From Elusimicrobiaceae bacterium (GTDB lineage Bacteria > Elusimicrobiota > Elusimicrobia > Elusimicrobiales > Elusimicrobiaceae): a stretch of 64,000 nt of DNA. The stretch is from the NCBI GenBank assembly GCA_017528825.1, contig JAFXOI010000001.1, positions 124,001 through 188,000 on the forward strand. The letters run 5' to 3'. The notes below the pieces were generated by a model. It worked only from the letters and a program-made list of their open reading frames with translations. It did no database searches and was not told the origin of the DNA. This document shows positions 15,342-47,299 of this stretch, one piece after another. Position numbers and translations under genes: made by a program. Within the stretch, counting starts at the first letter, position 1. Each line of letters starts with the position of its first letter.

Positions 15342-16022
15342 CTACAGTGAAGTACCGGAAACCACAGACATTCTATGCTCTCCGCGGCAATCACGATGTT
15401 GCATATCTTTGGGAATGTTGTAGAAGTTAATTACCCATTTCGGAAAACCATAGGTATCGCATAGCGTTTCTTTGTTTACGAGCGCAGCGGCCTCATTTAA
15501 AGATAGCAATTGTTCTTCAGCCTTAACGTGTACATAATACTTATGATTTGCTATCTCTTTCACTTTGGGCATTATCTTTGAGTTTAACTGATTAATTTGT
15601 ATAACCAAATATTTAAGGGCACGAAAAGTACTTTGAAGGTCCCCGTCGGCCATCAAACCATCCTGTATATTTTTTTGGTAATAGGAAAAATCATCTACAA
15701 AAGACTGATCTAAGAGTTTATATCCCACGAGCGCATTCAAAGCATAAATGGCTCTTTTATGCTCGATTTGAGCTTGCTGTTCTAAAGAAAGTTCTTTTTG
15801 TCCAGCAGCTTTTTTCATGGCGGCAATATCTTCTTGTACTTTTGAATCAGCTGCTTTTAATGAAAGAGCTACCTTCTGTTCAAAATCCAACCTTTCCGCC
15901 ACTTTGTCTGCGGCTTCTTTTCTTTGTGAGTAGCCAGTAATTTGCACATCTGCCCAAACTGACGCGTAAACAGCACTCACAGCCAAGCAGAGCAATCCAA
16001 CTAACGCGATTATTTTCTTCAT
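15342..16022 (-). CDS. Secreted protein of the HxYYF family (member 1)
   Basis: 226 aa with a signal peptide (MKKIIALVGLLCLAVSAVYA). The body is helical and rich in Lys/Glu/Gln. Near 162-180 it has the motif HKYYVHVKAEEQLLSLNEAA, shared with the products of 16226-17230 and 46724-47299: a His, a YY(F/V) group, then L-x-SL and A. No known family recognised. The upstream region is shared by all four family genes, so they form a small regulon. Periplasmic or outer-membrane associated location is inferred. Confidence 0.75.
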   Translation of the reverse strand: MKKIIALVGLLCLAVSAVYASVWADVQITGYSQRKEAADKVAERLDFEQKVALSLKAADSKVQEDIAAMKKAAGQKELSLEQQAQIEHKRAIYALNALVGYKLLDQSFVDDFSYYQKNIQDGLMADGDLQSTFRALKYLVIQINQLNSKIMPKVKEIANHKYYVHVKAEEQLLSLNEAAALVNKETLCDTYGFPKWVINFYNIPKDMQHRDCRGEHRMSVVSGTSL

Positions 16023-16168
16023 ATTTTTCCTCCTTTTATGGTTAAAACCGGCGGCTTGCGCCCTGTCTTTAACCTATTTGATTTCCTTACCCCTATAGTA
16101 TTTCAAAAAAACAAAGATACGTCAAGTGTATTTTAGGCCTTTTTTCCAATTGGGCCTAAAGACCTTAT
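16023..16168 (-). promoter_or_regulatory. Conserved promoter and leader of HxYYF member 1
   Basis: In transcript direction: an imperfect AGGTCTTTAG-type palindrome (16149-16165), an AGGCCTAAAA half-site, TTGACG (-35), a T7-rich spacer, a -10 around AATACT, then a leader hairpin with outer stem GGTTAAA/TTTAACC (about 16040-16074) capped by GGC-GCAA-GCC, then GGAGG and ATG. The same order recurs at 17231-17370, 18055-18191 and 46589-46723. Confidence 0.68.
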
Positions 16169-16225: not shown

Positions 16226-17230
16226 TTATTTCACATTATAGAATGCTCTGGCAAACGGTTTTAAACGGGCGGTGCTGATTCCATTACCCAAAGTCAGACA
16301 TTCGTGATCCACATTTTCGGCAATTTGATCTAACGAAGCCAATTTGCCGTAGTTGTACACAAAATAATACTGATGATTTAACAGGTCCTTTACTTCCGCC
16401 AACAATGCCTCGTCCTTAATGGATAGGGCCGTTTGAGCCAATTTTTCCAAAGCAATCTCTGCATCTTGATAAGCAAATGATTTTTGGGTGTCAGAGGCTA
16501 ATACGCCTACCAGATACTGGTGTTTGGCAAGCACACCGTTTAAAATACCCGAGTGTTCTGCATGAGAGGCCGCCTGTTTTCTCAGTGCGTTTTCTGCTCT
16601 CAGGGCTTCCCGGAGCGCTTGCGGAGCAACCGGATTAGCGGGAATCAAAGTGTTAAAATAAGACTCTGTTTCTCTATCGAACCCCGCCGTTTTGGCCTGA
16701 TAATTCGGCAGACTGTATTGTTTCACACTTAATTCGCTCAATTCAAGTGCCGCTTTTTTCAAAGAAACCAATCCTTCTGTTTTATAATTGGGGAAATAAT
16801 ACTGATGATTGAGAATGGCCTCAATATTTCTGCGCAACGTAGCATCTTCAATCCCTTGCATAAAAGAAGCGAAGATTTCCAATCTATTAACGTTGTCTTG
16901 ATAATAAAATTTGGGCTCAGTTCCTTTTGTGTTATTGAAAATATCACGCAATTGCTGATGCCACTCTTCCACTTCTTCTAAAGTTACGGTTGCATTCGTA
17001 ACGTCTTTTTCAAATAGATCTTTTAAAGCCTCAGAAGCTTCCTGAAATTCTTTTTCTTCTTGGTTCTTTAAACTCCCTACATCTACCGCTTGTGACAAAG
17101 CCTTTTCTTCTTTTTGGCTTCCCTTCTTAAATAAGCCACTATAGCTTGTCAAAACGGGGCTACTAATTATGGCGTGTGCTGTCCCTGAAAATAGACCAAG
17201 CACGCCAATCAATACCATCAGTTTTTTCAT
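16226..17230 (-). CDS. Secreted protein of the HxYYF family (member 2, two repeats)
   Basis: 334 aa with signal peptide MKKLMVLIGVLGLFSGTAHA. The mature protein is mostly helical. It contains the family motif twice: NHQYYFPNYKTEGLVSLKKA (about 144-163) and NHQYYFVYNYGKLASLDQIA (about 285-304), which suggests an internal duplication relative to the single-motif members. Function unknown. It shares promoter and leader with its neighbours. A single terminator and promoter on each side make it monocistronic. Confidence 0.78.
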   Translation of the reverse strand: MKKLMVLIGVLGLFSGTAHAIISSPVLTSYSGLFKKGSQKEEKALSQAVDVGSLKNQEEKEFQEASEALKDLFEKDVTNATVTLEEVEEWHQQLRDIFNNTKGTEPKFYYQDNVNRLEIFASFMQGIEDATLRRNIEAILNHQYYFPNYKTEGLVSLKKAALELSELSVKQYSLPNYQAKTAGFDRETESYFNTLIPANPVAPQALREALRAENALRKQAASHAEHSGILNGVLAKHQYLVGVLASDTQKSFAYQDAEIALEKLAQTALSIKDEALLAEVKDLLNHQYYFVYNYGKLASLDQIAENVDHECLTLGNGISTARLKPFARAFYNVK

Positions 17231-17370
17231 ATTCTTTCTCCTTTGGGCTCACGTCGGCAGCTTGCACCATCGTTAGCCGATAATTTTTCCACACTTATAG
17301 TATCTTAAAAAAACATCTCTACGTCAAGCGTATTTTAGGCCTGTTTCCCGATTAGGCCTAAAGACCTATA
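17231..17370 (-). promoter_or_regulatory. Conserved promoter and leader of HxYYF member 2
   Basis: Minus-strand order: palindrome-like TAGGTCTTTAGGCCTAA (17352-17368), half-site AGGCCTAAAATAC, TTGACG, T-rich 18-base spacer, GATACT, then a leader hairpin (about 17244-17281) whose outer stem differs in sequence from the other copies but still pairs, capped by GGT-GCAA-GCT, then GGAG before the ATG. Confidence 0.7.
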
Positions 17371-17415: not shown

Positions 17416-18054
17416 TTATCTCTTTCTATAATCGGGCTTCCCGGTAGTTTTATGGTATTGCACCCATTTATCGTACATTTCTCCAAGAAAAACCCCTTTT
17501 TCATGCGGATTTCCGTCGATCATATTAAGTGCATAGGGCAAGAAATACAATTGGCCGCGCACTAAATATTGGTGACAAAGCGCGATTTTAATCATATTGA
17601 CTACTGTTTTGCTGTCAATTTTGCTAAAAGATTCGTCTAACGCCTTTCCCGCTCCTTGCACACGAAAAGCCACCATCCATTCTTCATCTTCCGGCCAATG
17701 GGATGCTTCTGGCATAGAAGTATTAAATCCATTGAACAGGGCCCCATGTAACTCTTGGATTTTTTCTAATTCCGCTGCGTATCTGGGAAATATAAATGCT
17801 AAACTTTTTAGCTGTTGTTGGCCTTTTTCAAATTGTTCTTTAGCAACTGCTGTAGCTTGCTCGGACGAATCTCCTTCCAATTCCGGGTGTTCCGGCAACA
17901 ATCCTTTTTGTTGTGTTGCAGTCTGCTTGGATTCTTCATGTTTGATTAATCCTTTCAAACTTTCTCTCATAATCATATGCTCAGCAATTGGATTCATAGC
18001 ATAAACCGCAGAAGCTAAACCAAGCACAGATACTAATAACATTAATTTCTTCAT
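17416..18054 (-). CDS. Secreted protein of the HxYYF family (member 3, divergent)
   Basis: 212 aa with signal peptide MKKLMLLVSVLGLASAVYA. The mature region is Glu/Lys/Gln-rich. The family motif is weak (CHQYLVRGQLYFLPYALNMI near 170-189), but the promoter, palindrome and leader hairpin are nearly identical to those of the 46724 gene, so it belongs to the same regulated set. Function unknown. Confidence 0.72.
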   Translation of the reverse strand: MKKLMLLVSVLGLASAVYAMNPIAEHMIMRESLKGLIKHEESKQTATQQKGLLPEHPELEGDSSEQATAVAKEQFEKGQQQLKSLAFIFPRYAAELEKIQELHGALFNGFNTSMPEASHWPEDEEWMVAFRVQGAGKALDESFSKIDSKTVVNMIKIALCHQYLVRGQLYFLPYALNMIDGNPHEKGVFLGEMYDKWVQYHKTTGKPDYRKR

Positions 18055-18191
18055 ATTTCCTCTCTCGTTAAGATCCGCTAGTGGCTTGCACCAAGCGAAC
18101 CGATTACTTTGCTACCCTCATAGTATCTTAAAAACGCAATCCCAATATCAAGCGTTTTTTGGCCCTATACCATTTTAGGTCTAAAGACCTA
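18055..18191 (-). promoter_or_regulatory. Conserved promoter and leader of HxYYF member 3
   Basis: Minus strand: TAGGTCTTTAGACCTAA palindrome (18175-18191, touching the alaS stop), AGGGCCAAAAAAC half-site, TTGATA, 18-base spacer, GATACT, then a leader hairpin (18069-18103) with stem CGCT/AGCG and GGT-GCAA-GCC cap. The -35/-10 region matches that of the 46724 gene almost base for base, although the two genes are 28 kb apart. Confidence 0.72.
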
Positions 18192-46588: not shown

Positions 46589-46712
46589 TTAGGTCTTTAG
46601 ACCTAAAAAAGAGTGGGGCTAAAAAACACTTGATATTGGGATTGTGTTTTTAAGATACTGTAAGTGTAGTAGATTAATCAGTTCGCTGAGCGCAAGCCAC
46701 CAGCGGATCTCA
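46589..46712 (+). promoter_or_regulatory. Conserved promoter and leader of HxYYF member 4
   Basis: Perfect palindrome TTAGGTCTTTAGACCTAA (46589-46606), GGGCTAAAAAAC half-site, TTGATA (46630-46635), 18-base spacer, GATACT (46654-46659), then leader hairpin 46681-46708 with GTTCGCTG pairing to CAGCGGAT and a GCAA cap (46692-46695), then AAGGAG. Same order as at 16023, 17231 and 18055. Confidence 0.75.
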
Positions 46713-46723
46713 AGGAGAAATAT

Positions 46724-47299
46724 ATGAAGAAATTAATGATGCTGGTATGTCTGTTAGGGCTGGCAACGATGGCATATGCTGAAAGTCCTGCTGTGGCAGT
46801 TCGTATTATGGACCCTAACTTTGGTAATCCTTCTCAACATTCATCCGCACCTTCCGTGCAGAAACAACAAGTCTCCTCTGGCACCAATATCTCGACCGTT
46901 GTCATCGCTGGGACAGTTGCAGTTATTAGTAAAATTGCACATCAATCCGAATTACAAGCTCAAGCAAATAATGAAGCTCAACAAGCTGAAGACAAATTGG
47001 ACGAACTAATTAAATACAACGAAAATTTTAAAGTCGGGTTGCAAGTTATCAAAGCTAAGCATGCGAAACTTGTTGAAGTAATCAGCCATACCTCTAATAG
47101 AAAGCAAGTACTCAAAGAAGCCAATGTTGTACTGGAAGATTTGATACAAACCACGATGAAATTAAATTATCAGCCGCTCGTTGAAAAAGTAGTAGAAGCG
47201 TTGGATCACCCGTACTACTTCCCGTTGCGTAATCCCGACAAGTTAATTTCCCTTCCCAAACAAGCCAGATTAGCTTGCACGGTGCAAAAAACGAAATAA
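46724..47299 (+). CDS. Secreted protein of the HxYYF family (member 4)
   Basis: 191 aa with signal peptide MKKLMMLVCLLGLATMAYA. Helical Gln/Glu/Lys-rich middle and, near the end, LDHPYYFPLRNPDKLISLPK, the family motif. Separated by 28 kb from the three-gene cluster but with a nearly identical upstream region. Function unknown. Confidence 0.75.
   Translation: MKKLMMLVCLLGLATMAYAESPAVAVRIMDPNFGNPSQHSSAPSVQKQQVSSGTNISTVVIAGTVAVISKIAHQSELQAQANNEAQQAEDKLDELIKYNENFKVGLQVIKAKHAKLVEVISHTSNRKQVLKEANVVLEDLIQTTMKLNYQPLVEKVVEALDHPYYFPLRNPDKLISLPKQARLACTVQKTK

Follow-up and report, generated by a model that had tools for sequence, protein, structure and literature searches.

A putative palindromic operator-promoter precedes exported-protein genes across the class Elusimicrobia and is probably operated by one two-component regulator

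Nearly all Elusimicrobiota are uncultured, and in the literature searched we found no described regulon from Elusimicrobia. The binding sites of NarL and NarP are built of heptamers, which for NarL form inverted arms of 7 around a 2-bp centre. ComA uses a tripartite site, in which a palindrome is accompanied by a further element beside the -35. For the regulon of DosR/DevR, a response regulator of the NarL/LuxR family in M. tuberculosis, the motif contains GGGACTWWAGTCCC (PMC2275270), and Lys179, Lys182 and Asn183 of DosR contact DNA (PMC4082495).

The palindrome analysed here resembles each of these systems in part. It shares with NarL the inverted arms of 7 and the 2-bp centre, although the base sequence differs, and with ComA a palindrome plus an element beside the -35, although the third element is here a degenerate second palindrome. 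The likeness to DosR/DevR extends to a palindrome with a 2-bp centre, similar half-sites and tens of targets. GGGACTWWAGTCCC is close in form to the AGGTCTTTAGACCT found here, and K-T-x-K-N in the recognition helix, which supplies contacts in DosR (PMC4082495), is common to our candidate regulator, RR-B. However, base 4 of the half-site differs (A against T), the targets here are exported proteins, the kinase is dCache-like where the sensor of DosR is a haem protein, and binding by RR-B is a prediction.

The window, meaning the whole stretch of 64,000 nucleotides analysed, comes from a genome of 1.53 Mb. Judged by RR-B, its nearest named relatives are MAGs from the gut that carry the labels Elusimicrobiaceae, Elusimicrobium and Candidatus Avelusimicrobium, at about 88-90% identity. 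A preliminary description of the window had reported a common order of elements upstream of four secreted-protein genes, and reading and aligning all four upstream regions confirmed it: in 4/4 genes we found the palindrome, a AGGCCTAA-like element, TTGAYR, a spacer of 17-18 nt, [GA]ATACT, a hairpin, a Shine-Dalgarno sequence and ATG, with a mean column identity of 77%. The measured spacer between -35 and -10 is 18 nt in two promoters and 17 nt in the other two. The genes with their predicted operators and promoter elements are as follows.

46724..47299, plus strand: gene of a signal-peptide protein, 191 aa, without a Pfam family above cut-off
46589..46606, plus strand: distal operator TTAGGTCTTTAGACCTAA of gene 46724, inverted repeat with arms of 8 and a centre of 2
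46614..46632, plus strand: degenerate proximal operator TGGGGCTAAAAAACACTTG over the -35, compared with the consensus TTTAGGTCYAAAGACCCTKG
46630..46635, plus strand: -35 TTGATA of gene 46724
46654..46659, plus strand: -10 GATACT of gene 46724, after an 18-nt spacer
17416..18054, minus strand: gene of a signal-peptide protein, 212 aa
18176..18191, minus strand: distal operator TAGGTCTTTAGACCTA of gene 17416..18054, immediately behind the alaS stop
18149..18167, minus strand: proximal operator TAGGGCCAAAAAACGCTTG, with -35 TTGATA at 18146-18151 and -10 GATACT at 18122-18127
16226..17230, minus strand: gene of a signal-peptide protein, 334 aa, with an NHQYYF segment twice
17353..17368, minus strand: distal operator TAGGTCTTTAGGCCTA of gene 16226..17230
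17325..17343, minus strand: proximal operator CAGGCCTAAAATACGCTTG, with -35 TTGACG at 17322-17327 and -10 GATACT at 17299-17304
15342..16022, minus strand: gene of a signal-peptide protein, 226 aa
16151..16166, minus strand: distal operator AAGGTCTTTAGGCCCA of gene 15342..16022
16123..16141, minus strand: proximal operator AAGGCCTAAAATACACTTG, with -35 TTGACG at 16120-16125 and -10 AATACT at 16097-16102

The AGGCCTAA element had been taken for a separate half-site. It is indeed present, but (as in TAGGGCCAAAAAACGCTTG) it aligns with the canonical proximal operator and -35 (TAGGTCCAAA-GACCCTTG) known from other genomes, being one base longer with a decayed right arm; it is thus a putative degenerate second operator of the same kind and not an element of its own. 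A lone third half-site in the style of ComA was dropped once the canonical sites had been aligned and this second palindrome was seen. Consequently, the window promoters read as the canonical tandem in which the proximal site is weak and the -35 better. All four genes have a distal site that is almost a perfect palindrome and a -35 closer to consensus; they depart from the canonical promoter in a site spacing of 24-25 instead of 22 bp and in the decay of the proximal site.

All four window proteins are paralogues, none of them (0/4) reached the Pfam cut-off, and the three minus-strand genes form a tandem array right behind alaS. Part of the upstream likeness is therefore due to duplication, and independent support for the shared block comes from other genomes. 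That recent gene duplication accounts for the likeness entirely, with no regulatory meaning, is hardly credible to us: the tandem arrangement, the paralogy and the restriction of the hairpin to these genes would agree with it, but the first protein shares only 26-29% identity with the other three while the operator is nearly constant, and throughout the genus many exported-protein genes that are unrelated also have this operator upstream. For the operator, this reading is refuted.

Within the window, the palindrome does not stand out from chance, as loose AGGTCTTTAGACCT matches with at most 3 mismatches numbered 8 against 4.1 expected. Exact matches to AGGTCTTTAGRCCT in the whole 1.53-Mb genome were only three of the four window sites, the fourth being AGGTCTTTAGGCCC, which differs from it. 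When GGTCTTTRGACCTAAA was searched with up to 2 mismatches in 21 genomes, G003, G009 and G007, for example, had 20, 13 and 11 sites, compared with 0, 0 and 1 for the reversed-motif control. Most of the sites that we read lie shortly upstream of a signal-peptide gene, and the adjoining genes are otherwise unrelated. Forty-five sites aligned in gene orientation yielded the consensus TTTAGGTCYAAAGACCCTKG, and most have another TAGGTC element some 22 bp further upstream. A sequence profile built on these 45 sites found 7-53 sites per genome in 66/66 genomes of the genus (E up to 0.5). In the window's own genome the profile gave 12 matches at E up to 10, and the further sites read there likewise stand in front of exported-protein genes. 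A signal-peptide gene lies downstream of 119 of the 132 sites with a following ORF, against 12% of random window points, where signal peptides were called by a simple hydrophobicity rule and the profile, trained on sites beside such genes, supplied some of the loci. Canonical sites also precede the orthologues of the window genes behind alaS in G037, G010 and G067 and in the further relative G055. A mobile or REP-like repeat was rejected, since the sites precede exported genes in a constant orientation and at a constant distance from the -10. The palindrome is thus the local copy of a predicted control switch that stands before many exported-protein genes across the class Elusimicrobia. The analysis supports the earlier suggestion that these genes form one regulon controlled by a protein, and extends it to an operator-promoter that is genus-wide and largely class-wide.

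The promoter geometry bears on how such a switch would act. The operator is an inverted repeat of dimer type, with arms of 7, a centre of 2 and the proximal site near -42, an activator position. A sigma-70 type -10 was found 24-25 nt past GACC at 77 of 119 sites. The -35 at canonical sites is poor, amounting only to TNG, which together with the fixed distance to the -10 fits dependence on an activator. These same two features speak against the palindrome as a repressor operator, at which a dimer over the -35 would keep the exported genes off until a signal arrives. A proximal site that abuts or overlaps the -35 would suit repression too, and the window genes, unlike the canonical sites, have a -35 near consensus; on balance we hold repression to be quite unlikely and infer activation.

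Some promoters of the regulon lie very close to their genes. Thirteen sites are exactly 36 nt from the ATG, and among the 22 sites at 36-38 nt the -10 ends 6-7 nt before the ATG in 16, so that leaderless mRNAs are predicted. Candidate leaderless members with the site 36-37 nt from the ATG include L034, L064, L069, L088, L098 and L105, and they would be well suited to studies of how translation proceeds when a Shine-Dalgarno sequence is missing. At other loci (e.g. L030, L062, L063 and L073), everted half-sites (GACCTA-n8-9-TAGGTC) followed by a T-run occur upstream of the canonical site; this arrangement looks like the intrinsic terminator of the upstream gene, doubling as a distal operator.

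For the phylum test, we scored 159 genomes for the exact motif TAGGYCYWWRGRCCY and for an RR-B orthologue at E<1e-60. The Elusimicrobia, the class that bears the predicted switch, live in guts and groundwater. The motif is found in families f1, f2, f5, f7 and f8 and essentially nowhere besides in the sample. It is present in 68 of the 71 genomes with an RR-B orthologue and in 4 of the 88 without (Fisher 6e-36 with the tree ignored; by family, 5/5 against 0/18). Since this co-occurrence holds at class level, it is unable to single out one gene, and any regulator of the same clade would fit.

Seven Response_reg domains are encoded in the window's genome, and a recognised DNA-binding output accompanies only two of them, RR-A (P0001) and RR-B (P0002), both NarL/LuxR-type. 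RR-B combines a receiver with a LuxR-type DNA-binding domain (Response_reg 2.7e-29, GerE 2.2e-17). Its gene neighbours a dCache-like kinase, a receiver-kinase hybrid, a T2SSF protein and TadE-like genes, the TadE matches being near cut-off. The KTIKN of RR-B aligns with the KTVKN of DosR/DevR (3c3w), and the equivalents of Lys179, Lys182 and Asn183 are all kept in its recognition helix. At locus L298, the gene for RR-B is preceded at about 115 bp by a tandem operator. Only two strong sites were found across 894 kb of RR-B neighbourhoods, this being one of them; for most RR-B genes, no site lies directly upstream. In G168 (f1), RR-B has diverged to 62% identity, the first contact Lys is replaced by Asn and the motif is missing, whereas G014 keeps an intact recognition helix yet has no motif; G118, G191 and one G139 copy did not match the recognition-helix pattern and were left out of this check.

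The same regulon and promoter might be served by a different binder, either another class-wide transcription factor or RR-A, with RR-B only sharing the range. The co-distribution does follow the tree, and RR-A is also NarL-type and present throughout the genus. On the other hand, close orthologues of RR-A are missing from most motif-bearing f5 and f7 genomes, which disfavours it, and its recognition helix reads NTIHVH where RR-B has KTIKNH. The operator before the RR-B gene at L298, the joint helix change and motif loss in G168 and the DosR-like contacts favour RR-B, so we consider a different binder unlikely. The switch is probably operated by one two-component regulator, and RR-B is the probable binder of the palindrome.

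Taken together, we regard it as likely, from sequence evidence, that the shared block is a promoter dependent on an activator and serves a large regulon of exported proteins in the class Elusimicrobia, with RR-B as the most likely activator. In this model, a dimeric activator would bind a tandem pair of TAGGTCY-WW-AGACCYA sites (arms of 7, centre of 2) spaced by about 22-25 bp. Of the two, the proximal one, centred near -42 and abutting or overlapping a TNG/TTG -35, would take the class II activator position, with a sigma-70 type -10 at a fixed distance past it. RR-B, a response regulator of the NarL/LuxR family whose gene adjoins those of two histidine kinases (one with a dCache-like sensor domain) and of the Tad pilus, would occupy the predicted operator stretch TAGGTCYWWAGACCY and, when phosphorylated, would activate the genes of secreted and surface proteins jointly. 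A broader idea, which we put forward only tentatively and hold to be somewhat doubtful, is that a class-wide Tad-linked two-component system activates a large share of the accessory exported proteome, partly via leaderless mRNAs, as a contact- or host-sensing programme. This proteome would comprise protease-like and ankyrin proteins and many function-unassigned families.

The leaders of the four window genes carry in addition a hairpin with a GCAA loop.

46680..46709, plus strand: leader hairpin of gene 46724
18072..18101, minus strand: leader hairpin of gene 17416..18054
17246..17278, minus strand: leader hairpin of gene 16226..17230
16040..16074, minus strand: leader hairpin of gene 15342..16022

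An outer 8-bp stem surrounds the loop in 4/4 leaders, with differing sequences and 7-8 pairs in each, and it is unlikely under arm shuffling in every copy (P 0.0017-0.029); the free-energy stability is modest (z -0.3 to -1.8). A MAFFT-based consensus fold misaligned the stems, and an alignment anchored on the GCAA loop was used in its place. This alignment of four paralogous sequences leaves out variable internal-loop bases and was picked with knowledge of the stem, which favours structure. Of its 44 pair cells over 11 pairs, 41 are paired (93%), with compensatory changes on both sides in 5 of the 11 and a constant GCAAGC tip. Pairing falls to 23-53% in slid-partner controls. A short hairpin model barely tells its own members from background within the window. 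The hairpin is a real covarying structure, found only on the four paralogues.

An RNA control step had been proposed for these leaders, with a resemblance to the c-di-GMP-I (GEMM, RF01051) aptamer. The resemblance is limited to a short GCGCAAGCCnCCGG-like string in one leader: here there is one simple hairpin, the second half is absent, and nothing in Rfam matched at the thresholds used. GEMM was rejected, since the window gave nothing at the gathering threshold and cmscan of the four leaders returned no GEMM even at E up to 10. A regulatory RNA switch more generally, whether riboswitch-like or the target of an RNA-binding protein, would draw on the compensatory changes, the constant tip and the improbable outer stems. 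Against it, the four leaders contain no terminator, the stem ends ahead of the Shine-Dalgarno sequence, which is unpaired in the main folds, and a GNRA-capped helix of any kind occurs in only 2 of 70 regulon leaders of at least 25 nt. Conservation in related genomes likewise fails, as the hairpin is lacking from the orthologue leaders behind alaS in G037, G010, G067 and G055, where the operator is present. We therefore hold an RNA switch to be very improbable. The RNA part of the earlier proposal is supported only in part: the covarying hairpin stands, and the best reading makes it a local feature of the mRNAs of the window paralogue family, not a second control step common to the regulon. On these four mRNAs alone, the GNRA-capped 5' hairpin ahead of a free Shine-Dalgarno sequence would most simply be an mRNA-stability or translation-tuning element spread via gene duplication.

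With one signature marking exported proteins and pointing to one regulator, the secreted arsenal of each genome becomes listable from sequence, and what gut Elusimicrobiota export, and in reply to what, becomes a directly testable question. A Pfam scan of ten proteins, eight of them targets, gave one clear ankyrin and two weak ankyrin matches; among the same eight targets, one had a trypsin-like match that fell just short of the cut-off, and four gave none. A structure prediction of one target protein (pLDDT 53) was too poor for use. The related exported targets L025 and L098 have in common a segment MYRGM...KNGLEVxK...YPEGTKAIxA that by eye recalls ADP-ribosyltransferase-type folds, L025 having no Pfam match. 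The repeated NHQYYF segment of the 334-aa protein (16226-17230, minus strand) suggests an internally duplicated domain. Finally, the highest count of exact operator matches among the genomes was seen in G143 (family f7), with 32 forward and 32 reverse, which may point to a regulon of unusual size or one with many perfect palindromes.
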